DNA of 64,000 nucleotides from assembly GCF_900105065.1 (NCBI RefSeq), contig NZ_LT629749.1:4650001-4714000 (forward strand), in the 5' to 3' direction. The first letter of the stretch is position 1; each line of letters begins with the position of its first letter. The stretch is from Friedmanniella luteola. Its GTDB lineage: Bacteria > Actinomycetota > Actinomycetes > Propionibacteriales > Propionibacteriaceae. Below, one piece after another: positions 17,068-31,537 of the stretch. A program made the position numbers and the translations under genes. The notes beneath the pieces are model-generated. The model did not search any database. It was not told the DNA's origin and saw nothing but the letters and a program-made list of their open reading frames with translations.

Positions 17068-17757
17068 ATGTCGAACGGTGGCAACACTGATGGGGCGGCG
17101 CTGACGGCGCCCCGACCGAGCGAGGTCCGGGACGAGACCACGGTGCTGGTGGTGGACGACCACCAGTGCTTCAGCGATCTGCTGACGGCCGCGCTCGCGG
17201 CCGTCCCGGGCTTCCGCTGCCTGGGCACGGCCTCGTCCGCGGCCGAGGGGGTCGAGCTGGCCGGCCGGTTGAGGCCCGACGTCGTCGTCATGGACATCCA
17301 GATGCCGGGCACCGACGGCCTGGCCGCCACCCGCCGGCTGCGGCAGGCGAGCCCGGCGACCGCCGTCGCCGTCGTCACCGCGCACACCGACGCCGAGTGG
17401 GTGGCGCGTGCCGCGCAGGCCGGCGCCTCGGCCTTCATCCCCAAGGGGGGCACGCTCGCCGAGATGGTCGACCTGCTGCGCAGTGCCCGGCCGGGCCGCA
17501 TGGTGGTGGCGCCGTCGCTCCGCCGGACCGCGCCGGTATCCACCGCGGCCGGGGCGCCGGACGCGCTGACCGCCCGTGAGCTCGAGGTGCTGGGCTACAT
17601 CGGCCAGGGCCTGCAGGCCAAGAGCGTGGCCCGGGTGATGGGGATCAGCGTGCACACCTGCCGGGGCTACATCAAGACCGTCTACGCGAAGCTCCACGTG
17701 AGCAGCCGGATCGAGGCCGTCAACCGCGCCCGCCAGCTGCAGCTCCTCGACTCGTGA
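17068..17757 (+). CDS. NarL/LuxR-type response regulator
   Basis: A 229-residue regulator. Its receiver domain (about 17-135) has the acidic pair in VVDDHQCF, the phospho-acceptor Asp in VVVMDIQMPGTDGL, Thr in VTAH and Lys in IPKGG. A LuxR-type helix-turn-helix domain (about 165-222) follows: LTARELEVLGYIGQGLQAKSVARVMGISVHTCRGYIKTVYAKL. The histidine kinase starts within its stop codon (GTGA overlap), so it is a cognate pair. It is closely related to the regulator at 26149: both share ASAAEGV-like, VVMDIQMP and RAAQAGASAF stretches, which suggests duplication inside this cluster. Probable targets are the copper/oxidase genes downstream. Confidence 0.93.
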   Translation: MSNGGNTDGAALTAPRPSEVRDETTVLVVDDHQCFSDLLTAALAAVPGFRCLGTASSAAEGVELAGRLRPDVVVMDIQMPGTDGLAATRRLRQASPATAVAVVTAHTDAEWVARAAQAGASAFIPKGGTLAEMVDLLRSARPGRMVVAPSLRRTAPVSTAAGAPDALTARELEVLGYIGQGLQAKSVARVMGISVHTCRGYIKTVYAKLHVSSRIEAVNRARQLQLLDS

Positions 17758-19148
17758 GCAAGCGGGCGTCGGGCGTCCGGGTCATCCGCATCGGCGCGCG
17801 GCGCGAGCTGACGCTGCTGGTCGGTCTGGGGCTGGCCGTGATGCTGGCCATCGGCCTCGGCGCGGCCTTCGCCAGCCAACGGGTCGCGCAGACCCAGGCC
17901 CTGGACGACGCCGAACGGATGACGGTGCGGCTGGCCAACCTGGTGATCAAGCCGGGACTGCCGGGCTACCTGGAGTACGACGAGGCGAAGGCCGACGAGC
18001 TGCGGCGCGCCCTCGCCAACCGGATGTCCGACGGCTACCTGACCGAGGTGACCGTGTGGGGCGCCGATGGCATGGTCCTGTTCAGCAACAAGGCCGAGGA
18101 CGTCGGCAACCTGGTGGAGCCGGTCCCGATCGAGGTCCAGGACGCCATCGCGGGCCGCACGACGTCGGACTTCGAGGACGACCCGCCCGAGGCGGACGCC
18201 CTGCCCAGCGCGGGCGCCCCGGCCGGTGTCGAGGAGGACCGCGGGCCCAGCCGCTACGTCGAGGTCTACACCCCGCTCGTCATGCCCGGGTACCCGCCGA
18301 TGGCCTTCGAGGCCTACTACGACTACCACCGGGTCGAGGACGTCGCCGACCGCCTGCTCCGGCAGACCCTGCCGCTGGTGCTGGGGCCGCTGCTGGTCCT
18401 GCAGGCGATCCAGATCCCGATCGCCGTCTCCCTGGCCCGGCGGCTCCGGCGGCACCAGGACGAGCGCGCGCGGCTGCTCGAGCGCGCCCTCTCGAGCTCC
18501 GACGCCGAACGCGTCCGCTTCGCCGCCGACCTGCACGACGGTCCGATCCAGGACCTGGCCGGGATCGGCTACGCGCTGGGAGCGGTCGCGCCGTCGGTCG
18601 ACCCGAAGCACGCCCCGCTGATGGCCCGGGTCCAGGAGGCCCTCCAGCGCTCCGTGCAGAGCCTGCGCACCCTGATGACCGACCTGTACCCGCCCGACCT
18701 GCGCGACGGCAACCTCGTCGAGGCGCTGGGCGCGCTGGCGTCGAACGTCCGGGCGGAGGGTCTCGCGGTCGACCTGCAGCTCGCCGACGTGCCCGAGCTG
18801 GCCGAGGACCAGGTGACGACCCTGTACCGCGTGGTGCGGGAGAGCCTGGCCAACGTCGTCAAGCACGCGCAGGCGAGCACCGTGACCATCTCGCTGGGCC
18901 CGGTCGCGCCCGACGCCACCGACCCGCAGACCGCCCGCGTCCGGCTCGTCGTCGCCGACGACGGCGTGGGGGTGGACCCCTCCCGGCTGGACAAGCGCGC
19001 CGAGGGCCACCTGGGCCTCCGGCTGCTCGCCGACCGCGTGGAGAGCCTCGGTGGCCGGCTCGTGGTCGCGACCGGACCGGACCGGGGCACCTCCGTCGAG
19101 GTGGAGCTGCCGGTCGACTCCGCGGCCCGCCGGGGCCTGCCGGGCTGA
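17754..19148 (+). CDS. Sensor histidine kinase (HisKA_3 / NarX-DegS type)
   Basis: A 464-residue membrane kinase. A first transmembrane segment (about 14-38, LTLLVGLGLAVMLAIGLGAAF) and a second (about 205-225, PLVLGPLLVLQAIQIPIAVSL) enclose an extracytoplasmic sensor domain of roughly 160 residues without cysteines or an obvious ligand motif. The dimerisation/phospho-acceptor domain follows, with DLHDGPIQDLAGIGYALGA (His near residue 261), then the ATPase domain with RVVRESLANVVKHAQAS (N box), VVADDGVGVD (G1) and GHLGLRLLADRV (G2). It partners with the overlapping response regulator. The signal is unknown; a redox or copper stimulus is suggested only by the neighbours. Confidence 0.93.
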   Translation: MSKRASGVRVIRIGARRELTLLVGLGLAVMLAIGLGAAFASQRVAQTQALDDAERMTVRLANLVIKPGLPGYLEYDEAKADELRRALANRMSDGYLTEVTVWGADGMVLFSNKAEDVGNLVEPVPIEVQDAIAGRTTSDFEDDPPEADALPSAGAPAGVEEDRGPSRYVEVYTPLVMPGYPPMAFEAYYDYHRVEDVADRLLRQTLPLVLGPLLVLQAIQIPIAVSLARRLRRHQDERARLLERALSSSDAERVRFAADLHDGPIQDLAGIGYALGAVAPSVDPKHAPLMARVQEALQRSVQSLRTLMTDLYPPDLRDGNLVEALGALASNVRAEGLAVDLQLADVPELAEDQVTTLYRVVRESLANVVKHAQASTVTISLGPVAPDATDPQTARVRLVVADDGVGVDPSRLDKRAEGHLGLRLLADRVESLGGRLVVATGPDRGTSVEVELPVDSAARRGLPG

Positions 19149-19156
19149 GACCCCGC

Positions 19157-20842
19157 TCAGCCGTTCACCGGGACGACCAGGACCGCGGTGGGCTCGTCGA
19201 ACCGGCTCGTCCGGGCGCTGACCAGCAGCTGCCACGCGCCGGGCACCGGCAGGGCCGCCGAGACGGCGTAGCGTCCCGGCTGGTCGAGCGGTCGCACGGT
19301 GGCCGGCAGCGGGCCGAGGCCCTGCTCCGGCAGCGACAGCGAGACCCGCGGCGGCTCGTCGATGACCAGCGGGGCGCCGTCCGGACCGCGCAGGGTCAGC
19401 TCCGCGGTCCGCGTGCCCACCCCGCCCGGGGCGACGCTCAGCTGCACGCTCCCCGTGCCCAGCTCGGCCCGCTGCGCCGACGCCGCGGTGACTGCCGCCG
19501 GGCTGCCGGGCTCGGCCGGCGCGCTGGGGCTCTGCCCGACGAGCACGCCGGTGACGGCGAGGGCGACGACGACGACGGCCGCCTCGTCGACGACGGCGGC
19601 GCGGAGCCGCCGCCACTGCTCGGCCGGTGCGCCGCGACGGCGGACCGCACCGACCAGGGAGTAGCGGTTCCAGGCCGCGAGCACGCCGACGACGGCCACC
19701 AGGGCCAGCTTGGCCAGCAGGGCGCGGCCCCAGCCGGTGCCCGTCAGGTCGGCGGGCCGCTCCAGCACCAGGGTGGCCATGGCCAGGCCGCTCACGCCGA
19801 GCAGGCCGACCAGCACGCCCGCCAGCGCCGAGAACCGGACGACGACGGCCGCGGTGGCCACCGCCTCCTCGGGCCGGCGGCGCGCGGCCAGCAGGTGCAG
19901 GCCGAGCCCGAGCAGCCCACCGGACCAGACGGCGGCGGCGCTGACGTGCACCAGGTCGAGCAGCGCCATCACCCACGTCGGGCCGACGGTGCGGGTGTGC
20001 CCGGTCGCCAGCACGGAGGACAGGGCGACGAGCGACCCCAGCAGCCCGACGCCCCGGGCGGCTGCGGCGGGCAGCCGCCCGGCGACCAGCAGCAGCAGGG
20101 CGCCCGCGGTGACGAGGGCCACGGCGGCGCCGGCCCCCGAGCCGGAGCCGAGGCCCTCCTGCCAGGCCCAGCCGTCGGCCAGGTCGGAGACCGGACCACC
20201 CGCCTGCTCCACCGCGCTGGTGCCGGCCAGCAGCAGGGTGGCGGTCACGGCGAGCGCCAGGCCGCCGACGACGAGCCGTCCGCCGCGGCCGGACCAGGTC
20301 CCCGGGGCGAGCACCAGGTGGCGGAAGACCCAGAGCCCGACGCCGCCGAGCAGGCCGAGCCAGCTGAGGACCTGCAGGGACGTCCGCAGGGTGGCGACGG
20401 CCCCGCCGCGGGTGTCGAGGTCCGGGGCCGAGGGTGGTGTCGCCGAAGGAGCCCCGACGGCGAAGGCGACGGCCCCGCCCACGGGGTGGCCGTCGGCCGA
20501 GACGACGCGCCAGCCCAGCAGGTAGCTGCCCCGGGCGAGCCCGGTCGGCAGCGCCGCGGTGACGACGCGGTCCCGGCTGCTCACGCCGACGGTGCTGGGC
20601 ACGCCGTCGACGGTGTGCCGGCCCGTGCTGTCGTAGAGGGCGAAGCCGCCCTCGACCACGGTGACGGGTTCGTTGAACCGGAGCTCGACGGTGCCGGGCG
20701 CGGCGGCGACCACGGTGCCGTCGGCGGGCACCGTGTCGACCAGCCGGGTGTGCGCGGACGCGGACGGGGCGCCGAGCACGGCGCCGAGCAGGAGCGCGGC
20801 CAGCAGTCCGAGCGCGCGGGCCCAGCGGCGGCGGTTGCGCAC
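19157..20842 (-). CDS. CopC-CopD fusion: copper resistance/uptake membrane protein
   Basis: A 561-residue fusion. A signal peptide ends at SASA, so the mature chain begins with His (HTRLVDTVPADGT), the N-terminal Cu(II) ligand of CopC. The CopC beta domain continues to about residue 130 and contains SADGHPVGG, which holds the other Asp and His ligands. The CopD part (about 150-460) has eight or more membrane helices, including LDLVHVSAAAVWSGGLLGL. A C-terminal exported beta domain (about 470-561, VQLSVAPGGVGTRTAELTLRGPDG) follows, related to the extra domain of actinobacterial fusions. CopC/CopD proteins bind periplasmic copper and move it inward. It overlaps no gene but starts 1 base from the end of the YcnI gene, so the two form an operon. 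Confidence 0.9.
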   Translation of the reverse strand: MRNRRRWARALGLLAALLLGAVLGAPSASAHTRLVDTVPADGTVVAAAPGTVELRFNEPVTVVEGGFALYDSTGRHTVDGVPSTVGVSSRDRVVTAALPTGLARGSYLLGWRVVSADGHPVGGAVAFAVGAPSATPPSAPDLDTRGGAVATLRTSLQVLSWLGLLGGVGLWVFRHLVLAPGTWSGRGGRLVVGGLALAVTATLLLAGTSAVEQAGGPVSDLADGWAWQEGLGSGSGAGAAVALVTAGALLLLVAGRLPAAAARGVGLLGSLVALSSVLATGHTRTVGPTWVMALLDLVHVSAAAVWSGGLLGLGLHLLAARRRPEEAVATAAVVVRFSALAGVLVGLLGVSGLAMATLVLERPADLTGTGWGRALLAKLALVAVVGVLAAWNRYSLVGAVRRRGAPAEQWRRLRAAVVDEAAVVVVALAVTGVLVGQSPSAPAEPGSPAAVTAASAQRAELGTGSVQLSVAPGGVGTRTAELTLRGPDGAPLVIDEPPRVSLSLPEQGLGPLPATVRPLDQPGRYAVSAALPVPGAWQLLVSARTSRFDEPTAVLVVPVNG

Positions 20843-20843
20843 C

Positions 20844-21599
20844 TCAGGCCTGGTCGGGGCGGGTCCGCGCCGAGCGGCCGCGGACGAGGGCGGTCAGGCC
20901 GGCAGCCAGGCCGAGGGCGCCGAGCACCAGGCCGCCGAGGTCGGCCGCGCCGGTGGTCGAGCCGGCCGGCACCGTGGCCGTGGCGACGGCTCCCTCGGCA
21001 GCCTCGGCTTCCTCGGCCGGTGCCGCCGCGGCGTCATGACCATGGCCGTGGGCGGCCGCGTCGGTGACCGTCACGGAGGGAGCGGGGTGCTCGAGGGCGT
21101 CGGCGTCCTGGCCGGCGGCGGGGACCTGGGTCCACCCGGTCTCACCCTCCGTGCAGGTCTGCACCGTGGGGAAGACCAGCGTGCGGCCGGCCGCGTCCTC
21201 GGGCAGCGACACCTGGAGCGAGAGGGTGTCCCGGTAGCCCTCGGCGAGCGGGGTGCGGGCGGTCCACACCACCTCGGACACCCGCTCGGTGAGGACCTTG
21301 CCGTGCGCGGTGGTGACCGGTGCGGCGAGCTCCTCGGTGCGCTTGGCCACCGTCCACCCCGGGTTGACGGTGGGGGTCACCGACTCGATCCCGGCCGGGA
21401 CGCGGACCGCGACCCGCGTGGTGGGCGAGCCGTCGCAGCCGTGCGGGACCGCGAGGGTGAGCACCGCGTAGCTGCCGGCGGCGGTGGTGTCGGCGGTGAC
21501 GGAGACGTGGGCGGAGGCCGAGCCCGGCAGGGCCACGGCGGCGAGCGCGGCGGCGGCGCCGATGGCGGCGAGCCGGGCGGTGGTACGGGTGCTGGTCAT
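20844..21599 (-). CDS. ycnI: YcnI-type (DUF1775) copper-binding exported protein
   Basis: A 251-residue protein with a signal peptide ending SASA, giving a mature N-terminal His (HVSVTADTT). In DUF1775/YcnI proteins this His, with an Asp/Glu and a Trp, binds Cu(II). The body shows the beta-sandwich pattern AVLTLAVPHGCDGSPTTRVAVRVPAG and PTVNPGWTVAKRTEE. After a His-rich linker (HGHGHDAAAAPAEEAE) comes one C-terminal membrane helix (LGGLVLGALGLAAGLTALV) and a basic tail. It is the first gene of the ycnI-copCD operon and is divergent from the receiver-only regulator across a 321-base gap that holds a C-run/G-run element. Confidence 0.9.
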   Translation of the reverse strand: MTSTRTTARLAAIGAAAALAAVALPGSASAHVSVTADTTAAGSYAVLTLAVPHGCDGSPTTRVAVRVPAGIESVTPTVNPGWTVAKRTEELAAPVTTAHGKVLTERVSEVVWTARTPLAEGYRDTLSLQVSLPEDAAGRTLVFPTVQTCTEGETGWTQVPAAGQDADALEHPAPSVTVTDAAAHGHGHDAAAAPAEEAEAAEGAVATATVPAGSTTGAADLGGLVLGALGLAAGLTALVRGRSARTRPDQA

Positions 21600-21778
21600 G
21601 GTGTTCCCCCTGAGGACCCGGTCACGGGCCCGTGCTGCTGGTGCTCGGTCGCGCGGGCCTGGGCCGGGACCGGGAGACGGCTGGACACCGGCCCCGGAGC
21701 CGTGGGCCGGCCCGCGATGGTGCCCTCAGCCTGCTGCCGGCGCGGTGCCGCGAGCAGCCTCACGAGGGGGAGGGGAGG

Positions 21779-21875
21779 CCCCCCCGAACGGGGGGGCCGG
21801 CCACCGGCCCCCTCATCCAGGGGGTGCCGTCCTCACGCGCCGGGGGTGGATTTTTCCCCTCCCGGTGTTCATGCT
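21779..21875 (+). promoter_or_regulatory. Candidate regulon element D, upstream of the receiver-only regulator
   Basis: An inverted run pair, seven C (21779-21785), GAAC, seven G (21790-21796), is followed by a further C-run (21808-21812) and, on the opposite strand, a GTGAGG box (21831-21836). A possible -10 CATGCT (21870-21875) lies 45 bases before the ATG at 21921. The layout repeats at 22466, 24907 and 26835. It may serve the divergent ycnI operon as well. The rest of the 21600-21920 gap shows no gene. Confidence 0.5.
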
Positions 21876-21920
21876 GGGGTGGCGGGCCACCGTCCGCCGC
21901 CCGCCTCAGAGGGGATCCGC

Positions 21921-22334
21921 ATGACACGCGTGCTGGTCGTGGACGACCACGACTTCTTCCGCGGGTCACTCGTCGAGCTGGTCAACGCCAGCGGCGACCT
22001 GGTGGCCGTCGGGGAGTGCGCCGACGGGGCGACCGTGGCCGCCGCCGTCGCGGAGCTGGACCCGGAGGTGGTGCTGATGGACGTGCGGATGACCACCCGG
22101 TCGGGGCTCGAGGCCACCGCCGACCTGCAGCGGGCCGGCTCCTCCGCCCGCGTCATCTTGTTCAGCTCCGACCCCGTCCGCACCAACCGCGCCGCCGCGG
22201 AGGCCAACGGGGCGGTCGGCTACCTGGTGAAGGGCGCCGACGGGGCCCACGTGCTGGACGCCGTGCGCCACGTCGCCCGCGGCGGGACCGCCTGGCCGGA
22301 GGACGTCGCCGCCGGCTTCTCCACCGCCGTCTGA
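21921..22334 (+). CDS. Receiver-only response regulator
   Basis: A 137-residue stand-alone receiver domain: VLVVDDHDFFRGSLVELVNASGDL, phospho-acceptor Asp in EVVLMDVRMTTRSGLEAT, Ser in ILFSSD and Lys in YLVKGADGAHV. It lacks the LuxR-type output domain present in its two neighbours and ends shortly after the fold (EDVAAGFSTAV). It could act as a phosphate sink, an adaptor, or a partner of the two NarL-type regulators. The stop is followed by a 308-base gap that carries the element of the multicopper oxidase gene, so this is a natural short gene rather than a truncation visible in the DNA. Confidence 0.9.
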   Translation: MTRVLVVDDHDFFRGSLVELVNASGDLVAVGECADGATVAAAVAELDPEVVLMDVRMTTRSGLEATADLQRAGSSARVILFSSDPVRTNRAAAEANGAVGYLVKGADGAHVLDAVRHVARGGTAWPEDVAAGFSTAV

Positions 22335-22465
22335 GCCTGGCGACCCGGCCCCACGCCGGGGGCGTCGGGTGCCCGTCGGCCCGGCTGAGCGCGCACCGAC
22401 CGACGGCCGTCGGCGCGCTCGCCCGCGCACCGACCGACCGGTCGAGAGGCTCTCCCGGGGACCGC

Positions 22466-22564
22466 GACCCCCGTGTTTGGGGGGTCGCCGCTCCCCCACC
22501 CGTGAGGGTCCTGCGGGGGACCCCGAGGCACGAGGCTTGCGGCAACGGGAAACCCGGGCCAGCC
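22466..22564 (+). promoter_or_regulatory. Candidate regulon element A, upstream of the multicopper oxidase
   Basis: Five C (22468-22472), GTGTTT, a G-run (22479-22484), a C-run (22493-22497), then ACCCGTGAGGGTCCTGCGGG (22498-22517), CGAGGCT (22531-22537, possible -10) and a small palindrome ACGGGAAACCCGG. Nearly the whole 99-base block recurs at 24907-25003 with the same 30-base step from CGTGAGGG to CGAGGCT. The remainder of the 22335-22642 gap has no gene. Confidence 0.6.
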
Positions 22565-22642
22565 GCCCGCGGAACCGTTCCGGGGACCAGGGGCCCCGGA
22601 GCGCTGACCCGCCTCACGATCACACGTCCGGGGGGACAACAG

Positions 22643-24313
22643 ATGAAGCTCTCGCGTCGCGACGCACTCAAGCTCGGCGGGCTCGCCGCCATCGGTTCCG
22701 CAGGCCTCGCCCTGCCGCTCGGCCGGTCCGTGGAGGCCAGCACGCCCAGCCTGCTCAGCAGCGGGAACTTCCCGGGCCGCTACGCCAAGCCCCTCACCCT
22801 CCCGCCGGTGCTGGCGCCGACCTCGGTGGTCGAGGAGGGCGGGAAGGTCGTCCGGAAGTACTACGAGGTCACGGCGAGGACCGCCACCGTCCCCGCCGGC
22901 AAGATCCTGCCCAAGCTGAGCACCACGATGCTGGGCTACAACGCCTCGATCCCGGGCCCGCGCATCGACGTCGAGCAGGGTCAGACGGTCCAGCTGATCG
23001 TGCGCAACGCGCTCGGGGCCAGCACGGCGACCTTCAAGACCCCGAGCCCGATCTCGACCCACCTGCACGGGTCGGCGTCGCTGCCGCAGTACGACGGCTA
23101 CGCCGGGGACCTGACCCTCAACGGGCAGAAGAAGTACTACCAGTACCCGAACTTCCAGCCGGCCCGGACGCTGTGGTACCACGACCACGCGCAGCACTAC
23201 ACCGCGCAGAACGCCTACTCCGGTCTGGCCGCGCAGTACCACCTGCACGACGCGGTGGAGCGCGCGGCGCTGCCGCAGGGTGAGTACGACGTGCCGCTGA
23301 CGCTGTCGGACGCGATGTTCAAGGCGGACGGCTCGCTGATGTACGACGACCGCTCGCACTCCGGCCTGTGGGGCGACGTGATCATGGTCAACGGGACCCC
23401 GTGGCCGGTGATGCCCGTGAAGCGCGCCGTCTACCGGTTCCGGCTGCTGAACGCCTCGATCTCGCGCTCCTACCGGCCCAGCCTCTCGAACGGTGCCTCG
23501 GTGCACATGGTGGCCACCGACGGCGGGATGATGCCCAAGGTCCAGAAGGTCACGCAGTGGCGGCACGGCAGCGCCGAGCGCTACGAGTTCCTGGTCGACT
23601 TCCGCAGCTACGCCCCCGGCACCCGCATCGAGCTGAAGAACCTCAGCAACCCGAACAACCGCGACTACGACCACACCGGCAAGATCATGGCCTTCGACGT
23701 CATCGGCGACGCGGTGCCGGACGCCGTCAAGAACTGGAAGATCCCGACCGAGTTCCGCGTCACCGTCGACCCCGCCACCGGGGAGAAGCGGCTGACCGAC
23801 GACCCGACCAAGCCGCTGGTCAACAGCGAGGTGATGGACCTGGCGCCGACCAAGAACCTGAAGGTCCGCAACATCCGGGTCCAGAAGGACGACGTCACCA
23901 ACGAGTGGAGCATCAACGGCGACACGTGGAACGACATCGTCGAGTCGGAGTACACGAAGGTGGTCGCCGACCCGGGCCTCGGCGACACCGAGATCTGGGA
24001 GATCGAGAACAAGTCCGGTGGCTGGTTCCACCCGGTGCACATCCACCTGATCGACTTCAAGATCCTCAGCCGCAACGGCAAGCCGCCCTTCCCCTACGAG
24101 CTCGGCCCGAAGGACGTGGTCTACGTCGGGGAGAACGAGGTCGTCCGGGTGATCATGAAGTTCGGGCCGCACCGCGGGAAGTACATGATGCACTGCCACA
24201 ACCTGCCGCACGAGGACCACGACATGATGCACCAGTTCAGCGTGGGCCTGGACTCCGAGCACGAGGACGGGAACGACCCGATCAAGGGTGACCCCGCCAC
24301 CGACGACGACTGA
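22643..24313 (+). CDS. Tat-exported multicopper oxidase (CotA/bilirubin-oxidase-like)
   Basis: A 556-residue oxidase with a twin-arginine signal (LSRRDALKLGG, residues 3-13, then a hydrophobic stretch), so it is exported folded. All four copper motifs are present: HLHG (about 140), WYHDH (about 178-182), HPVHIH (about 463) and HCHNLPHEDHDMM (about 517). The last supplies Cys, two His and Met for the type 1 copper. Three cupredoxin-like domains fit the length (CotA is about 513). Such enzymes oxidise phenols, bilirubin or metal ions with reduction of O2 to water. The ends are unusually acidic (EHEDGNDPIKGDPATDDD). It is preceded by element A and followed 9 bases later by a signal peptidase gene. 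The copper-handling genes nearby could load it. Substrate unknown. Confidence 0.94.
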   Translation: MKLSRRDALKLGGLAAIGSAGLALPLGRSVEASTPSLLSSGNFPGRYAKPLTLPPVLAPTSVVEEGGKVVRKYYEVTARTATVPAGKILPKLSTTMLGYNASIPGPRIDVEQGQTVQLIVRNALGASTATFKTPSPISTHLHGSASLPQYDGYAGDLTLNGQKKYYQYPNFQPARTLWYHDHAQHYTAQNAYSGLAAQYHLHDAVERAALPQGEYDVPLTLSDAMFKADGSLMYDDRSHSGLWGDVIMVNGTPWPVMPVKRAVYRFRLLNASISRSYRPSLSNGASVHMVATDGGMMPKVQKVTQWRHGSAERYEFLVDFRSYAPGTRIELKNLSNPNNRDYDHTGKIMAFDVIGDAVPDAVKNWKIPTEFRVTVDPATGEKRLTDDPTKPLVNSEVMDLAPTKNLKVRNIRVQKDDVTNEWSINGDTWNDIVESEYTKVVADPGLGDTEIWEIENKSGGWFHPVHIHLIDFKILSRNGKPPFPYELGPKDVVYVGENEVVRVIMKFGPHRGKYMMHCHNLPHEDHDMMHQFSVGLDSEHEDGNDPIKGDPATDDD

Positions 24314-24322
24314 GCCGGGAAC

Positions 24323-24805
24323 GTGATGCGCTGGAAGGGCGTCGCGGCGGTCGCTGCGCTGATCGCCGGTGTGGCGGGGGCTCGGCTCAGCGTGTTCGAT
24401 CCCGTGCGGGTCTCCTCCGGGAGCATGGCGCCGACGGTCTGCACCGGGGACCTGGTGGTCATCGACCACCTCGCTCCCCGGCGCGGCGTCGCCGTCGACG
24501 ACATCATCACCTTCCGCTCCCCGACCGAGGGCACCGAGCAGATCAAGCGGGTCGTCGCGGTGGCCGGCCAGCGGGTCGGCATCGCCGACGCCCAGCTGGT
24601 CGTCGACGGCCGGGAGGTCGAGGAGCCCTACGTCGACCTCGCGACCATCGACGGCGTCTACTTCGGCCCCGTGCTCGTCCCCGCGGGCACCGTCTTCGTC
24701 ATGGGCGACGCCCGCGAGCTGTCGGTCGACTCGCGGGCCTTCGGGCCCGTCCCGCTCGACACCGTGGACGGCCGGCTCTCCGGACGTCTCTGGTCGGCCT
24801 GCTGA
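24323..24805 (+). CDS. Signal peptidase I-like protein, short
   Basis: A 160-residue S26-type signal peptidase. One N-terminal membrane helix (VAAVAALIAGVAGARLSV) is followed by the catalytic Ser motif SSGSMAPT (Ser near residue 33), VIDHLAPRRGVAVDDIITF, the Lys box EQIKRVVAVAGQRV (Lys near 75) and the C-terminal box VFVMGDARELSVDSRAFGPV. It is shorter than typical housekeeping LepB (about 250). It begins 9 bases after the multicopper oxidase, so it is probably co-expressed and may process proteins of this cluster. The start may be GTG 24323 or ATG 24326. Confidence 0.9.
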   Translation: MMRWKGVAAVAALIAGVAGARLSVFDPVRVSSGSMAPTVCTGDLVVIDHLAPRRGVAVDDIITFRSPTEGTEQIKRVVAVAGQRVGIADAQLVVDGREVEEPYVDLATIDGVYFGPVLVPAGTVFVMGDARELSVDSRAFGPVPLDTVDGRLSGRLWSAC

Positions 24806-24906
24806 CCGACCGGCCCGACCCGTCGACCGGCAGACAGCCCGGGACGTCGTCGCCGACCCGGGCCGACGGTGCTCCGACCGGCCCCGTCGGGGGCTGCCGG
24901 AGCCCC

Positions 24907-25003
24907 CACCCCCGTGTTTGGGGGGTCGTCGGCCCCCCACCCGTGAGGGTCCTGCGGGGAGCTGGGACGTCCGAGGCTGGTGGCCACGGGAACCCCGGCA
25001 GCC
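24907..25003 (+). promoter_or_regulatory. Candidate regulon element B, upstream of the CopD-like gene
   Basis: Close copy of element A: C-run 24909-24913, GTGTTT, G-run 24920-24925, C-run 24933-24938, CGTGAGGG (24942-24949), CGAGGCT (24972-24978) and ACGGGAACCCCGG. The only base changes cluster between the GTGAGGG box and CGAGGCT. It accounts for about a third of the 284-base gap between the signal peptidase and the CopD-like gene; the rest shows nothing. Confidence 0.6.
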
Positions 25004-25089
25004 ACGTTGTCGCGAACCTCCATGGCGCTGGTCGGCTTCGGGTCCATCACCTCCACACCTCCGCGCACCACCTCGCACCAGGAGCTCCG

Positions 25090-26079
25090 ATGTCCTACCT
25101 CGCCCAGCGTGCCGTCCTCGACACCCGCACCCGCGTCCGGCTCTGGACGAGCGGCCTCACGGGTCTGACCACCGCGGCGGCGCTGCTCGCCCTCGCCGCG
25201 CTGCTGGCCCTGCGCTGGTGGCAGCAGACGACGGCGGTGCCGCTCAGCTGGCAGCTGCCGCCCGCCGAGGCGCTGTTCCTGCTGCCCGGGGTCCCGGTGC
25301 TGGGGCTGATCGCCCTCCGGGCGGTCGTGGGTGGCCGGATGCGCACCGTCGCCGGCCACCACCTGATGACCTGGGCGGGCCGGTGGGCGTGGGTGTGGGT
25401 GGCCGCGACGGCCGCCGGCCTGCTGCACACCCTGCGCGGTCTCGCCGGGGTGACGCTGGGCCAGCTCGTCGGCGCCGACCACCTGGTCCTGGTGGCCTCG
25501 CGCAGCGAGACGGTCCGCTCCGGGCTGGGGGTGCTGTGGGTCGCCCTCCTGGTCGCCCTCTTCGCGACCCGGCTCAGCGGCTGGCGGGAGTCCTCGGCCC
25601 TGCTCGTCCTCACCGGCACCGCGCTGGTGGCCGGGATGCCGGTGGACCCGGCGCTGGCCCACGGCCACGCCGACACCGCCCACTCCGTCGTCGCGGTGGT
25701 CGGGGCCGTCCAGGTGCTGGCCCTGGCCTGCTGGCTGGGCGCCCTGCTGGCCGTCGGGCACCTGCGCACCCCGCCCTACCTGCTCCGTCACCACCTGATC
25801 CGCTACGGCACGCTGGCGACCGTGGTCGCGCTGCTGGCCGGCGTCACCGGGGTGCTGGCCGGCCTGCTGGCCACCGAGGCGCGGACCTCGCTGGTGGTCG
25901 GGGCCGCCCAGCTGGCCGGGGTCGCCCTGGTGGCCGCGGTCGGGTACCGGCACCGCCGCCGGACGGTCGACGTCGTGGCCGAGGGCCGTGCGGTCCTGCT
26001 GCTCGCCCTCGTCGCCGGCGAGGCCGTCGTCCTGGTCGCCCTGCTCGCCCTGGGAGCCCTGCTGCCGACCGGGCTCTGA
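25090..26079 (+). CDS. CopD-like polytopic membrane protein
   Basis: A 329-residue protein with about eight membrane helices. Similarity to CopD is seen in helix-borne His residues: VAGHHLMTWAGRWAWVWVAATAAGLLHTLRGLAG and LAHGHADTAHSVVAVVGAVQVLALACWLGALLAVGHL. It lacks the CopC domain and signal peptide of the fusion at 19157. A role in moving copper across the membrane, perhaps for metalation of the exported oxidase, is inferred from family and position. It is preceded by element B, suggesting control shared with the multicopper oxidase, and is followed by a response regulator 69 bases on. Confidence 0.75.
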   Translation: MSYLAQRAVLDTRTRVRLWTSGLTGLTTAAALLALAALLALRWWQQTTAVPLSWQLPPAEALFLLPGVPVLGLIALRAVVGGRMRTVAGHHLMTWAGRWAWVWVAATAAGLLHTLRGLAGVTLGQLVGADHLVLVASRSETVRSGLGVLWVALLVALFATRLSGWRESSALLVLTGTALVAGMPVDPALAHGHADTAHSVVAVVGAVQVLALACWLGALLAVGHLRTPPYLLRHHLIRYGTLATVVALLAGVTGVLAGLLATEARTSLVVGAAQLAGVALVAAVGYRHRRRTVDVVAEGRAVLLLALVAGEAVVLVALLALGALLPTGL

Positions 26080-26148
26080 ACCGGCTGCCGGACCTGCTGG
26101 TCTGTGCCACGATCGGGCCTCCGAGATGCAGAGCTGCAGGAGGTCGAC

Positions 26149-26817
<669 letters not shown>

Positions 26818-26834
26818 CAACCCTCGACCCGACC

Positions 26835-26867
26835 CCCCATCTGGGGGGTGGGCCGTTCCCCCGGCTG
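26835..26867 (+). promoter_or_regulatory. Candidate regulon element C (first part), after the response regulator
   Basis: C-run 26836-26841, ATCT, G-run 26846-26851, TGGGCCGTT, C-run 26861-26865. This repeats the spacing seen in elements A, B and D. As it lies 18 bases after the regulator stop it might also work as a terminator hairpin. A CGAGGCT (26971-26977) follows 104 bases later. Confidence 0.45.
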
Positions 26868-26970
26868 GGCGTGGTGCGCCGCCCGGGGACGCGCCCAGGA
26901 TCGTCCTGCGAGCAACCGCTGGACCGGCGGTGCGGTGGGCCCCACGTCCCCTCCGCGCCCGTCGCGGTTG

Positions 26971-27071
26971 CGAGGCTGCTCGGTCGCACCGGCCGCTGCC
27001 GTCACCCCCTGGCAGCGGCCCTGGCGCCAGCAGCCGTCGAGGGCCTGCCGTTCCCCGCGGCAGGCCCTCTT
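26971..27071 (+). ncRNA. Candidate small structured RNA or attenuator leader
   Basis: Within the 384-base gap before the peroxidase, CGAGGCT at 26971-26977 (the -10-like word of elements A and B) precedes two strong hairpins. The first has perfect 10-base arms GGCCGCTGCC (26991-27000) and GGCAGCGGCC (27011-27020). The palindrome CTGGCGCCAG (27021-27030) follows. The last hairpin has perfect 12-base arms at 27039-27050 and 27058-27069. No open reading frame fits. A transcript of about 90 bases is predicted from structure only; expression is not shown. Confidence 0.4.
27039..27069 (+). terminator. Hairpin terminator upstream of the peroxidase
   Basis: Arms GAGGGCCTGCCG (27039-27050) and CGGCAGGCCCTC (27058-27069) pair perfectly over 12 bases with a 7-base loop and are followed by TT. 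Being 133 bases before the peroxidase ATG, it either ends a short upstream RNA or attenuates read-through from the regulator gene. Confidence 0.7.
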
Positions 27072-27095
27072 CGCACGACGCACGCCCCGGCGGCG

Positions 27096-27165
27096 CCCCC
27101 CCACGTGAGGGGTCCGGTGCACCCCTCAGGAGCGGCTGCCGGGCGGAGCGCGGGGCCGCGAGGCT
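27096..27165 (+). promoter_or_regulatory. Candidate regulon element C (second part), promoter region of the peroxidase
   Basis: A C-run, then CCACGTGAGGGGTCCGG (27101-27117), shares the GTGAGGG word with elements A and B. Here it forms part of an 8-base inverted repeat, TGAGGGGT (27106-27113) and ACCCCTCA (27121-27128). CGAGGCT at 27159-27165 may be the -10; it lies 36 bases before the ATG at 27202. The step between the two words is 55 bases rather than 30. Confidence 0.5.
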
Positions 27166-27201
27166 GGGGCAGTCGCGTCCACCAGGGGGAGAGAACCGAC
27201 C

Positions 27202-28950
27202 ATGCCGCACCGCGCCCAGACCGCCACCTGCCCGTTCACCGGGCGGACCGCCGCACCGTCCGCCTCGCCGGCGCCGGCCGGGGACCACCGGGGAGCCGAC
27301 CCGGCCCGCCGGGAGGTCCGGCGTCGGACCGTCCTCGGGGCCGCCGTCGCCGCCCTCGTCGCGAGCGGCCTGCAGGCGGGCCCGCTGGGGGCGGTCCGGG
27401 CGGCCGCGGCCGGTCGTCGGGCGCTCCGCGGCACCCACGGCCAGAGCCTGCGCGGGCTCGACGTCGCCGCCAAGCTGGGTCGCGACCGCGAGGCCCGCTT
27501 CGGGCTGATGTTCAAGAAGCTGCCGGCCTACGCCCCCTCCGACGCCCTGCTCAAGACGCTGGCCCGGCGGATGGACGACGGCAAGGCCCCGTTGTCGGAC
27601 GTGCGGTTCAGCGACCCGGACAGCGACACCTCGATGCCCGCGGGCTACATCTACTTCGGCCAGTTCGCCGACCACGACATCACCCTCGACAAGACGCCGT
27701 TGACCCTGCAGCAGCAGGACCCCCGCGGGGCGACGAACTACGACTCACCCCGCTTCGACCTGGGCAGCGTGTACGGGGGCGGGCCCACCGCCAACCCCGA
27801 GCTGTACGACCCGGCGCGGCCGGGCTACCTGCTGGTCAGCGAGCACGACGGCATCGTCGACCTGCCGCGCGACGCCGTCGGCGCGGCCTTCCTCGGCGAC
27901 CCGCGCAACGACGAGAACCTGATCGTGGCGCAGCTGCACACCGTGTTCCTGCGGCTGCACAACACGCTCCGCGACTCCGGGCTCACCTTCGAGCAGGCCC
28001 GCCAGCAGGCCCGGTTCCACTTCCAGTGGCTGATCGTGCACGACTTCCTCCCCCGGCTGGTCGGCCAGGGGGTCGTCGACGCGATCCTGGCCCGCCGGGC
28101 CGACGGCACGCTGACCGCGCGGACGTCCTTCTACAAGCCGCGGAACGCGGCGAAGCCCTACATGCCGGTGGAGTTCTCCGGCGCCGCCTACCGCTACGGG
28201 CACTCCATGATCCGGGCCGAGTACGAGATGCAGGACCAGCACACCGTGCCGCTGTTCGCCCAGGACGGCTACGAGGACCTGCGCGGCAGCCGACCGATCC
28301 CGCACGACCTGTGGGTGGACTGGAACTACTTCTTCGACATCCCGGGCCTCAGCTCGCCGGACGACCGGAACATGGGCCGGCGCATCGACACCCAGATCTC
28401 CCTGCCGCTCTCGACGCTGCCGCCCACGGTGGTGGCGCCGACCGCCGGGGCCATCCTCGCCCTGGCTGAGCGGAACCTGCTGCGGGGCAAGCGGCTGGGG
28501 CTGCCGTGCGGCCAGGACGTGGCGGCGGCGATGGGCCTGAAGCCGCTGACGAACGCGCAGCTGGGCGGGCTGCCGGAGGCGGGCTGGAGCAAGAAGGCGC
28601 CGCTCTGGTACTACGTGCTCAAGGAGGCCGAGCTCGGCGGTGGGCAGCGGCTCGGCCCCGTCGGCGGCCGGATCGTCGCCGAGGTGTTCCTCGGCCTGCT
28701 GGCGATGGACCCGACGTCCTACTTCACGCTGCGGCCCCGCTTCGACCCGGGCGCCGGCTTCACGGTCGGGGACCTCATCCTCAAGGCGGGCGCCTTCGAC
28801 CCGCGCGGGCTGCCCCAGCCGCAGCTGCCGGAGGAGCCGGACGTGCCGGAGGAGCCGGACGTGCCCGAGGAGGAGCTGGAGCCGGTGCCGCTGGACCCGG
28901 ACGAGGAGATCGACCCGGAGGCCGTGATCCCGCTGCCCGGCGACGTCTGA
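27202..28950 (+). CDS. Tat-exported animal-type haem peroxidase
   Basis: A 582-residue protein of the peroxidase-cyclooxygenase (An_peroxidase) superfamily. The N-terminus carries VRRRTVLGAAVAALVASGLQAG (about 39-60), a twin-arginine signal. Catalytic landmarks are the distal His in GQFADHDITLD (about 152-162), the Arg/Glu pair in DPRNDENL, then LHTVFLRLHNTL, and the proximal His in YRYGHSMIRAEYEM (about 332). The C-terminus ends in an acidic repeat, three tandem copies close to PEEPDV, then EEEIDPEAV. It would use H2O2 to oxidise halides or organic substrates outside the cell. It is preceded by a regulatory block and candidate RNA, and ends before a large inverted repeat. Substrate unknown. 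Confidence 0.93.
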   Translation: MPHRAQTATCPFTGRTAAPSASPAPAGDHRGADPARREVRRRTVLGAAVAALVASGLQAGPLGAVRAAAAGRRALRGTHGQSLRGLDVAAKLGRDREARFGLMFKKLPAYAPSDALLKTLARRMDDGKAPLSDVRFSDPDSDTSMPAGYIYFGQFADHDITLDKTPLTLQQQDPRGATNYDSPRFDLGSVYGGGPTANPELYDPARPGYLLVSEHDGIVDLPRDAVGAAFLGDPRNDENLIVAQLHTVFLRLHNTLRDSGLTFEQARQQARFHFQWLIVHDFLPRLVGQGVVDAILARRADGTLTARTSFYKPRNAAKPYMPVEFSGAAYRYGHSMIRAEYEMQDQHTVPLFAQDGYEDLRGSRPIPHDLWVDWNYFFDIPGLSSPDDRNMGRRIDTQISLPLSTLPPTVVAPTAGAILALAERNLLRGKRLGLPCGQDVAAAMGLKPLTNAQLGGLPEAGWSKKAPLWYYVLKEAELGGGQRLGPVGGRIVAEVFLGLLAMDPTSYFTLRPRFDPGAGFTVGDLILKAGAFDPRGLPQPQLPEEPDVPEEPDVPEEELEPVPLDPDEEIDPEAVIPLPGDV

Positions 28951-29101: not shown

Positions 29102-30547
29102 TCACCGTACTGGACCCGAACTAATCTCGTGGCCACCGACGAAGACCCCGGAGACGGCGGGTTCCCGCAAGCCCATCAGCAGGGCGAAGAGGGTGGAGTC
29201 CGCCGCGGAGCGCTCGTCGGTCGTTCGTGCGACGCCTTCGAGGATAGTCGCGAGCGGTGGCCAGCCGGAGGCGTCGACGAGGACCAGGTCGGCCTCTTTC
29301 CCGGCGTCGAGGTTGCCGAACCGGGCGTCGGAGTCCAGCGCCTGGGCCCCGGCCAGGGTGCCCGTGTAGAGCAGCTCGGCCGGGTGCAGCGCGACGGCGG
29401 CGTCACCGGGCTCGGAGAGGTGCACCTTGTAGGCGTCGTTGAGCACCCGGCTGACCAGCCACTCGTCGCCGGCGCCGATGTCGGTGCCCAGCGCGACGCG
29501 GACACCCGCCGCGGTGGTGCGCCGCCACGGCATCGTGCCGGAGCCGAGGAACTGCTGCGAGGTGGGGCAGTGCGCCACCGAGCTGCCCGTCTCCGCCAGC
29601 CGGGCCAGCTCGGCGTCGGTGCAGTGCACGGCGTGGGCCAGGATGCTGCGCCGGCCCAGCAGGCTCTCCCCGCCGACGGCGGAGCCCGGCCGGAAGCGGC
29701 CGTCGTAGGTGTCGAGGTAGTCCCGGACCCCGTAGGCCGCGCGGACGGCTGCCACCTCGCCGACGCCGGGCGTGTCGTTCTCGGAGAGGTGGGAGTGGAA
29801 GTAGACGCCGCGCTCGCGCACCCCGGCGTAGAGCTCGCCCAGCCCGGCCAGCGTGGTCGGGGTGACCGACAGGCTGAACCGGGGCACGACGGCGACCTGC
29901 AGCCGCGCGGTCGCCGGGTCGCCGGTGTCGGCCAGGTGCCAGCGCTCGATCTCCTCCGCCACGAGGGCCAGCGCCTCGTCCTCGCCGGTCAGCAGCGGGG
30001 CTGCGGCGGCGGACCCCACGGTCTGGATGCCGCGGCCGCTGACCAGGCGCAGCCCGGCCTCCTGGTGCGCGGCGAACAGGGCGTCCTGCGCCGCGGGGAA
30101 GGCCGAGCCGAAGACGAGCGCGGCCGTCGTGCCGGCGGCCACCCGCTGCCGCACGAAGGCGGTCGCCAGCGCGGTGGCCACCTCCGGGTCGGCCAGCCGG
30201 GCCTCCGCGGGGAAGATGCAGTGCTGCAGCCAGTGCAGCAGCTGGCCGCCGCCGTGGGCGTCGACGGTGGCGGTCTGCGGGTAGTGCAGGTGGGTGTCGA
30301 CGAACCCCGGCAGCACGAAGTCGGCGCGGCGGACGGGCGTGCGGGCGTGCTCCGCGGGCAGGTCCGCGTGGTCGCCCAGCCAGGCGATCGTGCCGTCGGC
30401 GGCGATCACCAGGGCGCCGTCGGGCAGCGAGACGAGCTGCTCGCGGGCGGTGGCCAGGGTGGCGTCCCCGGCGACGTGGAAGACGTGGCCGCGGACGACC
30501 AGTCGAGCCCCCGCCGGGGTCGGCTCCGGCCCGGCTGCCGGCCTCAC
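29102..30547 (-). CDS. guaD: Guanine deaminase / amidohydrolase
   Basis: A 481-residue amidohydrolase-superfamily enzyme. Metal ligands are visible in GFVDTHLHYPQT (about 79-90, HxH), YFHSHLSEND (His), SILAHAVHCT (His) and LGTDIGAG (Asp). PQTATVDAHGGGQLLHWLQHCIFPAEARLADPEVA closely matches bacterial guanine deaminases, which convert guanine to xanthine and ammonia. It is the last gene of the purine-degradation run; its start overlaps the uricase stop by 4 bases (ATGA). The product xanthine would feed the xanthine dehydrogenase encoded upstream. Confidence in guanine over other purine substrates is good, from both sequence and context. Confidence 0.9.
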   Translation of the reverse strand: MRPAAGPEPTPAGARLVVRGHVFHVAGDATLATAREQLVSLPDGALVIAADGTIAWLGDHADLPAEHARTPVRRADFVLPGFVDTHLHYPQTATVDAHGGGQLLHWLQHCIFPAEARLADPEVATALATAFVRQRVAAGTTAALVFGSAFPAAQDALFAAHQEAGLRLVSGRGIQTVGSAAAAPLLTGEDEALALVAEEIERWHLADTGDPATARLQVAVVPRFSLSVTPTTLAGLGELYAGVRERGVYFHSHLSENDTPGVGEVAAVRAAYGVRDYLDTYDGRFRPGSAVGGESLLGRRSILAHAVHCTDAELARLAETGSSVAHCPTSQQFLGSGTMPWRRTTAAGVRVALGTDIGAGDEWLVSRVLNDAYKVHLSEPGDAAVALHPAELLYTGTLAGAQALDSDARFGNLDAGKEADLVLVDASGWPPLATILEGVARTTDERSAADSTLFALLMGLREPAVSGVFVGGHEISSGPVR

Positions 30548-31452
30548 ACCAGGCCCGTGTAGCCGTACCAGGCGGGGCCGGCGTCCGGGGCGTCGTCGCG
30601 GGTGACCTGGGCCTGGATGAGGCCGTAGGGCCGGTCGTCGGCGTGGAAGACCTCGCCCGGGTTCTCCAGCCCGAAGGGGCTGAGGTCGTAGAGGAAGTGG
30701 TGCTTGTTGGGCGCCGACAGCCGCACCTCCGCCACGAACGGGTGGGCCTCGAGGACGGCCCGGCCCATCTCGAACAGGGTCTGCTGCAGGGCGAGGGAGT
30801 GCACCTGCGCGAACGTCGCGACCAGCAGCTGCCGGATGCCGGCGTAGGTCGTGTCCCAGTCGACGCCGGCGTGCTCGGTGAAGCGCCAGCGCGCCACCAG
30901 GGAGGTGGCCATCACGCGGTCGGTGGTGGGCTGCAGCACGGTGTAGGGGTCGGTGCGGAACCCGGTGAACTCCGAGCCCGTCGACTTGAGGATGGTCAGG
31001 TCCTTCAACCCGCCCGTCACCCAGACCTGCTGGTCCGCGCCGGTGCCCTCGACGGTCACCGCGGCCGTCCGCACCTCCTGGCCCTTCCGCACCCAGGTGT
31101 GGTCGTGCTCCGCGCCGTCGACGACGACCCGTTCCCAGGCGAACTCCTCCACCTCGACGCGGGCGCCGGCGACCGGCTCGACGTCGTCGACGAAGTGCCG
31201 GGCCAGCGCCAGCGCGTAGTCCTCGACGGTCCGCAGGCCCTTCTCCCGGGCGTAGGCGTACACCGTCTGCTTCTGGCTGTCGGTGGGCAGCACCGCGGCC
31301 TGGTCACCCGCGGTGTGGGCCAGGCCGAAGTCGCCGCGCAGCGCGGTCGAGACGCTGAGGTCGCGGATCTCGTGCCGGGGCGTGTCCCGGTAGATCCGGA
31401 CGACGCGGTTCTCCGCCTTGCCGTACTGGTGGGTGCCGAGCACGATGCCCAT
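30544..31452 (-). CDS. Urate oxidase (factor-independent uricase)
   Basis: A 302-residue cofactorless urate oxidase that turns urate into 5-hydroxyisourate and H2O2. The N-terminus LGTHQYGKAENRVVRIYRD holds the catalytic Lys. LPTDSQKQTVYAYAREKG has the conserved Thr, and LSAPNKHHFLYDLSPFGLENPGEVFHADDRPYGLIQAQV is the signature region with substrate-binding His and Asn. Length matches the family (about 300). It overlaps the deaminase start and follows the xanthine dehydrogenase by 85 bases. No hydroxyisourate hydrolase or OHCU decarboxylase gene is in this window. Confidence 0.95.
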   Translation of the reverse strand: MGIVLGTHQYGKAENRVVRIYRDTPRHEIRDLSVSTALRGDFGLAHTAGDQAAVLPTDSQKQTVYAYAREKGLRTVEDYALALARHFVDDVEPVAGARVEVEEFAWERVVVDGAEHDHTWVRKGQEVRTAAVTVEGTGADQQVWVTGGLKDLTILKSTGSEFTGFRTDPYTVLQPTTDRVMATSLVARWRFTEHAGVDWDTTYAGIRQLLVATFAQVHSLALQQTLFEMGRAVLEAHPFVAEVRLSAPNKHHFLYDLSPFGLENPGEVFHADDRPYGLIQAQVTRDDAPDAGPAWYGYTGLV

Positions 31453-31537
31453 GGCCGTCCTCCCGGTCGCGCTGGTGGGTCGCGCCGATCCTAGGCAGCC
31501 CCGGTGACGGACCGGGGTCGGCGCGGCGGCTGCGGCG

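Follow-up and report, generated by a model that had tools for sequence, protein, structure and literature searches.

A probable co-regulated exported oxidase system in Friedmanniella luteola, with Mn(II) as a possible substrate

Introduction

We describe here a locus at positions 17068..28950 of a 64,000-nt stretch (the window, whose numbering is used unless another contig is named), which covers 4,650,001-4,714,000 of the 4.72-Mb, single-contig genome of Friedmanniella luteola. The locus encodes a multicopper oxidase (MCO) and an animal-type haem peroxidase (PER), both predicted to be exported, together with copper-handling proteins, a signal peptidase (SPase) and two-component regulators. 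The closest described counterpart is the Mn(II) oxidation of Pseudomonas putida GB-1 (MnxG, McoA, MopA; MnxS1, MnxS2, MnxR), where likewise multicopper oxidases and an animal haem peroxidase are found in one organism, a two-component system is required and a copper-chaperone gene, SCO1/SenC, adjoins mcoA (PMC11409713, PMC11930936). MnxR is sigma54-dependent, whereas the regulators of the present locus are NarL-type (Response_reg and GerE). Also in contrast to P. putida GB-1, the locus has a bilirubin-oxidase-like oxidase, a short linked peroxidase and a signal peptidase. Neither an MnxG homologue nor a sigma54-dependent regulator of the MnxR type was found in the locus.

Other described families resemble parts of the locus. 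CotA and bilirubin oxidase are the best solved matches to MCO and share all its copper-ligand motifs, whereas MCO carries a Tat-type signal and lies in a regulated cluster with a peptidase. As in the YcnI-YcnJ pair of Bacillus subtilis, a CopC-CopD fusion stands beside YcnI. When copper is limiting, oxidases receive copper that YcnJ imports, with YcnI in a secondary role (PMC13344008). Compared with that importer (CopC, CopD, YtkA), the fusion of the locus has CopC and CopD, YtkA was not detected by Pfam at E 0.001, and the linked oxidase is an exported, not a respiratory, one. PER resembles the short peroxicins of the peroxidase-cyclooxygenase superfamily, which are short bacterial animal-type haem peroxidases with actinobacterial members mentioned and with functions described as largely unknown (PMC4420034). 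The locus is a variation on known Mn-oxidation or laccase-type gene sets. Literature searches, mostly without subscription journals, found no such actinobacterial gene set described in titles or the starts of abstracts.

Gene content and class assignments

From the genes, their conservation and the operators that they share, we consider it very probable that the locus is one co-regulated exported oxidase system. Its genes are as follows.

17068..17757, + strand: RR1, NarL-type response regulator (Pfam Response_reg and GerE; 89% at the amino-acid level against Microlunatus capsulatus; recognition helix HTCRGYIK)
17754..19148, + strand: HK, membrane-bound histidine kinase whose sensor stretch is extracytoplasmic (HisKA_3 and HATPase_c)
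19157..20842, - strand: CopC-CopD fusion (CopCD), putative copper uptake (Pfam CopC and CopD)
20844..21599, - strand: YcnI (DUF1775; Pfam E 5.4e-45)
21921..22334, + strand: RRrec, receiver-only regulator (Response_reg alone; 89% against M. capsulatus, 66% against M. flavus)
22643..24313, + strand: MCO, bilirubin-oxidase/CotA-like multicopper oxidase with a Tat-type start (Cu-oxidase_2 and Cu-oxidase_3; 2xll, E 2.8e-85)
24323..24805, + strand: S26 signal peptidase (SPase) adjoining MCO (Peptidase_S26; TIGR02227 115.4 bits, cut-off 47)
25090..26079, + strand: CopD2, polytopic membrane protein related to CopD, if at all, only distantly (orthologues in M. capsulatus and M. flavus)
26149..26817, + strand: RR2, second NarL-type response regulator (Pfam Response_reg and GerE; recognition helix NTARGYVK)
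27202..28950, + strand: PER, animal-type haem peroxidase, predicted to be Tat-exported (An_peroxidase 56.6 bits, cut-off 25)

The Tat signals of MCO and PER were judged by eye. An initial annotation, made from the letters of the sequence, had named these genes; each is present at its place, and Pfam confirmed the domains. The label of the second "CopD-like" protein is the weak part of that annotation: the gene is there, but CopD2 gave no Pfam match at E <= 10 (all three members of its alignment were scanned) and no hhalign match to CopCD of the locus. Nothing but a tblastn match (30%, E 5e-8), to a protein that Pfam calls CopD, ties it to that family. As a plain CopD it was ruled out by Pfam and hhalign.

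MCO aligned to the fungal bilirubin oxidase 2xll across HLHG, HDH, HPxHxH and HCHxxxHxxHDMM, which we take to be the copper-ligand motifs; the full set of ligands claimed in the initial annotation is visible in that alignment. Bilirubin oxidase comes first and CotA second among the nearest solved structures. By its cupredoxin domains, the ligand motifs read from the alignment and its best subfamily match, MCO belongs to the bilirubin-oxidase/CotA type. The copper-resistance oxidases CueO and CopA were tried as alternatives and rejected on the NCBIfam curated cut-offs (CueO, 198.1 vs 525 bits; copper_res_A, 35.8 vs 478.95 bits).

PER belongs to the animal-type haem peroxidases (peroxidase-cyclooxygenase superfamily) by its Pfam score and by its conserved residues: among 20 relatives drawn from the best 120, Q154, D157, H158, D159, R235, E238, H334 and N425 are invariant, and presumably include the distal His, Arg and Glu and the proximal His and Asn of catalysis. 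The RxxE and His-Asn patterns agree with those reported for the superfamily (PMC4420034). In the same 20 relatives, a CPF(S/T)G motif precedes the twin arginines (27202-27330 in the window; C10, P11 and F12 nearly invariant) and marks a conserved extension ahead of the Tat-type signal. Genes of a guanine deaminase-like amidohydrolase, a uricase and a xanthine-dehydrogenase-like protein (the last assigned by eye) lie 3' of PER on the opposite strand (29102-33000); the first two are also found 3' of PER in M. capsulatus.

Shared palindromic operators and promoter layout

We derived an 18-bp palindromic position weight matrix (PWM) by expectation maximisation, with symmetry imposed, trained on no sequence but eight regions between genes of M. 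capsulatus and M. flavus. The 15 highest-scoring matches in the window correspond to 8 sites in several registers, all of them intergenic within the locus, and the next match scored 7.9 bits and lies inside MCO. Above 12 bits, the window has 8 matches (7 distinct sites), all between locus genes. At the same threshold there were 0 matches in the 340 kb of 19 peroxidase-centred loci and 2, both genic, in 1.2 Mb of the host genome (sixty stretches), and a third-order Markov simulation of 20 Mb gave an expectation of 5.1 matches per Mb. Two loci chosen via a pattern match (L113, L114) were excluded from this background. The sites, with no strand assigned, are listed below.

21780..21824: palindrome pair before RRrec (21780-21797, 10.1 bits; 21807-21824, 12.5 bits; 27 bp apart; GAGGCT-like element not at 22 nt)
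22467..22509: palindrome pair of the MCO promoter (22467-22484 and 22492-22509), followed by GAGGCTTG at 22532-22539
24908..24950: palindrome pair of the CopD2 promoter (24908-24925 and 24933-24950), followed by GAGGCTGG at 24973-24980
26831..26848: single palindrome (13.8 bits) immediately 3' of RR2, similarly placed in each of the three species; it could alternatively be a terminator hairpin
27097..27137: palindrome pair of the PER promoter (27097-27114, 15.9 bits; 27120-27137, 6.8 bits), followed by GAGGCTGG at 27160-27167

We observed that the paired sites start 25, 25 and 23 bp apart before MCO, CopD2 and PER, respectively, and that GAGGCT(T/G)G follows 22 nt past the second site in all three. 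The GAGGCT-like element is at 22 (MCO, GAGTGTGG) and 23 (PER) in M. capsulatus and at 22 before MCO of M. flavus (GAAGGTTG); in the RRrec promoters the site pair is present with a different spacing. Neither M. capsulatus nor M. flavus has a counterpart of the window's CopD2 promoter, which is, however, a copy of the MCO promoter, since 24903-24998 repeats 22462-22557 over 96 bp at 82% identity.

Nearly the same layout was observed at PER promoters outside the training set. In M. flavus, a 17.0-bit site precedes the unlinked PER gene, with a 6.5-bit site 25 bp further on and GAGCCTGG at 22 nt. PER of Blastococcus, which belongs to another order, has a 15.9-bit site, a 9.5-bit one at 25 and GACGCTCG at 21. 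Should GAGGCTKG be the -10 element, the second palindrome falls just upstream of the -35 region, at about the place from which NarL acts on napF and yeaR through 7-2-7 sites (PMC4549865). A known site, TACCCCTAAAGGGGTA, resembles the palindrome (same source). With symmetry imposed in training, the low-information central pair of the PWM is no more than compatible with a NarL-type site, and the binding is putative.

Simple pattern scans of the genome were also tried and set aside: allowing up to 2 mismatches, 13 matches were found vs 21 in the backward control, with no enrichment, and the 2 exact matches both lie in the locus, from whose sites the pattern had been written. A longer pattern gave 2 matches, both in the locus, vs 2 for its control.

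Taken together, these sites support well a predicted co-regulation of the locus genes through shared operators. The initial annotation had proposed a two-component circuit controlling both enzymes; the operators lend this proposal support, in the form of sequence evidence.

Conservation and linkage

PER, MCO and CopD2 each occurred in the same three of 117 genomes drawn from the family, host included. M. capsulatus has the whole gene set in the same order at ~75-89% identity. In M. flavus, RR1-HK-CopCD-YcnI-RRrec-MCO-SPase-CopD2-RR2 stand together with an extra secreted-protein gene between YcnI and RRrec, and PER is unlinked, on a separate contig; the deposited sequence of this PER gene has a frame change near residue 210 (L010:10001-11687). 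The set is hence conserved beyond the host genome, in full in M. capsulatus and minus a linked PER in M. flavus, which the initial annotation had made a requirement of its proposal. Among the best 120 relatives of the oxidase and the best 120 of the peroxidase there are four pairs (P0030/P0123, P0003/P0127, P0037/P0129, P0009/P0135) whose longest contigs are of equal size (12,041; 140,022; 15,317; 9,808; matched by eye). Because these sizes are equal and the sources match, they suggest MCO-PER linkage on four further contigs, each in another genome.

Further away, peroxidase relatives were found in 31 of 396 phylum-level genomes and oxidase relatives in 11 of the 396 (E <= 1e-60) and in 8 of 394 class-level genomes (E <= 1e-100), host included each time; CopD2 relatives were found in 1 of the 396, the host itself. 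We compiled 24 distinct oxidase loci and counted neighbours within 10 kb where flanks allow. A partial match at a contig end (G300) was excluded, two adjacent oxidase genes of G311 were taken as one locus, and G018, fetched twice (L013, L096), was counted once. Because many of these loci have flanks of less than 10 kb (on one side 2.2 kb in L133, 2.9 kb in L093 and 4.4 kb in L092), the counts are lower bounds.

Of the 24 loci, 11 have SPase near the oxidase, always within 1.2 kb, 13 have a NarL-type regulator, 12 a kinase and 10 CopC/CopD (one weak, L082). An MnxG-like giant oxidase was near 4 of the 24, a PER-type peroxidase near 2 and a MopA-type long peroxidase near 2, of one genus. With the same queries, 19 peroxidase-centred control loci gave SPase 0, regulator 4, kinase 4, and CopC/CopD, secreted protein and MnxG 0 each. 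Sixty sampled 20-kb stretches of the host genome gave SPase 1, regulator 12, kinase 3, oxidase-like 1, and CopC/CopD, secreted protein and MnxG 0 each. The host genome has 2 S26 matches, one being SPase of the locus, and the single SPase hit among the sixty stretches is the stretch with the other. Linkage of SPase and CopC/CopD to the oxidase is far above background, and that of regulator and kinase moderately above. The oxidase and peptidase, often with CopC/CopD and a NarL-type system, recur in more distant genomes.

A secreted protein of ~610-730 aa was observed near the oxidase in 6 of the 24 loci, some copies being partial (L061:6705-8549 of M. flavus, L137:6594-8528 and L138:13402-15603; partial in L081, L082 and L095). 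Its copies share a conserved start, HGFPAWYxDSxGxRxExC ... PGEFFYQ. Neither Pfam nor NCBIfam gave a match for the copy of M. flavus, that of G710 has a PKD-type match, and the window holds no match to this protein. In G710 (L138, 16825-20000; another family of the same order), a run of RR1, HK, receiver-only regulator and CopC lies ~6 kb from the oxidase-peptidase pair.

Candidate regulator

A recognition-helix core, T(C/A)RGY(V/I)K, is common to RR1 and RR2 of the host and M. capsulatus and to the oxidase-linked regulators of G710, G808 and G669; both M. flavus regulators have TCRSY(I/V)K, and regulators of the MnxG clusters differ. The sensor part of HK is conserved with G710 and, as far as it was called, with G669. 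From these likenesses, we infer that the operator-binding protein may be one of the NarL-type regulators of the locus. The host has a second RR1/HK-like pair at ~2.1055-2.1108 Mb (L184:5515-10840; 61%, the kinase 55% and 60% in two frames), so cross-talk is possible. Close to that pair are a further gene resembling multicopper oxidases (28%) and a four-helix membrane domain akin to the N-terminus of the MnxG-like proteins.

Partners from classes of Mn(II) oxidisers

In G311, G169, G353 and G332 the gene order is CopC-CopD-MCO-four-transmembrane (4TM) protein-SPase-giant oxidase, the giant oxidase of G332 being 8 kb off and cut by the contig end; NarL-type regulators and kinases are nearby in the first three. 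The giant protein of G353 (a 798-aa part; the one tested among the four) matches MnxG 9bxa at E 7.2e-79. A protein of 1.9 thousand amino acids with An_peroxidase, RTX and fn3, which is the architecture of MopA, adjoins the oxidase and a NarL-type pair in G808 and G669. The host itself encodes such a protein at ~1,702,816-1,709,358 (L112:2816-9358), with An_peroxidase, RTX, six fn3 stretches and Big_5; it scores 2,354 and 2,336 bits to the G808 and G669 proteins and by these features is a MopA-type long peroxicin. A single 13.1-bit site in its upstream gap resembles the MCO site, and an operator there is suggestive.

Animal haem peroxidases of the MopA type oxidise Mn(II) (PMC6247904), Mn(II) was oxidised in vitro by CotA of Bacillus pumilus WH4 (PMC3618234), and the enzyme classes concerned are reported as Mn(II) oxidisers (PMC6247904, PMC11409713). 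In three lineages, then, the oxidase is joined by a differing enzyme of these classes, which is an association. The initial annotation named no substrate. Because MnxG-like and MopA-type partners recur, we propose Mn(II) as a candidate natural substrate, at somewhat short of an even chance. A literature search on Microlunatus and manganese, mostly without subscription journals, returned no Mn oxidation by Microlunatus in titles or the starts of abstracts.

Discussion

Whether the locus is a two-component regulon for extracytoplasmic oxidation, with Mn(II) as the leading and not the sole substrate, appears to us evenly balanced. In such a regulon, HK would sense an outside signal and phosphorylate RR1; RR2 may use the same sites, and RRrec may serve as a phosphate sink or partner. 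Once activated, the regulator would bind the NarL-like palindrome pairs immediately 5' of the -35 region and would activate, rather than repress, MCO-SPase, CopD2-RR2, PER and RRrec, and perhaps the divergent YcnI-CopCD as well. YcnI, CopC and CopD would capture and move copper, probably to load the oxidase; that the copper proteins supply it had been suggested in the initial annotation, and the suggestion draws on family knowledge and linkage. Tat would export folded MCO and PER, and the dedicated S26 peptidase would cut one exported protein, possibly either of these. The copper oxidase with oxygen, plus the haem peroxidase with a presumed co-substrate, would then convert Mn(II) to Mn(III/IV).

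A broader proposal, which we put forward more tentatively, is an actinobacterial Mn(II)-oxidation regulon in which a NarL-type system drives a bilirubin-oxidase-like oxidase, short and MopA-type long peroxidases, copper supply and SPase, and in which the paired-palindrome promoter follows PER even when it is unlinked and in another order.

Several observations weigh against these proposals. Part of the operator agreement is descent: the majority of the promoters tested have orthologues in the training set, and the promoters of M. capsulatus, like that of the M. flavus PER gene, are orthologues of promoters used in testing or training. Near oxidase loci outside Microlunatus we found only single matches, in L082, L088 and L092. 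The promoter of the host long peroxidase has no pair and no -10 element at that spacing, and a genic match of 13.3 bits lies in the same 14 kb. Of the 24 oxidase loci, 13 are without a linked SPase, 11 without a regulator and 20 without an MnxG-like gene, and the oxidase was absent near the peroxidase in 19 loci from 18 of the 30 other peroxidase genomes. A search for MnxG in Microlunatus gave matches to the N-terminal membrane domain only (G000, G059) or none (G018). Bilirubin-oxidase-like enzymes are broad oxidases, and PER was rejected as a MopA-type long peroxicin, having 582 aa and no RTX/hemolysin calcium-binding domain by Pfam. MopA itself requires oxygen and NAD+ (PMC6247904), and in the P. 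putida GB-1 wild type it is reported to be without activity (PMC11930936).

The same co-regulated set may act on phenolic or tetrapyrrole substrates, by laccase or bilirubin-oxidase chemistry together with a phenol peroxidase, in humic breakdown or pigment formation. The bilirubin oxidases and then CotA as closest solved relatives of MCO agree with this, as does an FMN oxidoreductase gene upstream; however, the partners that recur elsewhere are MnxG-like and MopA-type enzymes, and no aromatic-degradation family was found among 15 proteins scanned between 14.0 and 31.5 kb. We consider such substrates unlikely, while giving them serious weight. It is improbable that the locus serves copper defence, with a CueO-like oxidase and with the C/G-tract palindromes as operators of a CsoR-type sensor encoded elsewhere, not of a NarL-type regulator. 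CopC, CopD and YcnI are present, and CsoR operators carry inverted C and G tracts, to which the palindromes bear a likeness. On the other hand, MCO lies far under the CueO and CopA cut-offs, the locus genes, to which the search for CsoR was confined, include no protein of that family, the constant distance to a -10-like element is in keeping with activation, and defence leaves the haem peroxidase unexplained.

That PER functions with the neighbouring purine-breakdown genes, uricase yielding H2O2, and has only its promoter type in common with the oxidase seems very improbable to us: guanine deaminase and uricase genes do lie 3' of PER in the host and M. capsulatus, but on the opposite strand from a peroxidase predicted to be exported, and the M. 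flavus PER gene is located elsewhere with its operator retained. A chance neighbourhood of unrelated common genes is scarcely credible. Although NarL-type regulators are frequent, occurring in 12 of 60 random stretches, the order is conserved in three species and the operators are confined to the locus.

If the co-regulated oxidase system is as proposed, it bears on a subject of which both regulation and purpose are described as unknown, namely Mn oxidation (PMC11930936). With a compact locus and a defined operator, the sensor, the regulators, both enzymes, the copper supply and the peptidase would become tractable by single deletions. The locus would tie the little-studied actinobacterial haem peroxidases to a circuit, and its operator would serve as a sequence signal for further members of the regulon.

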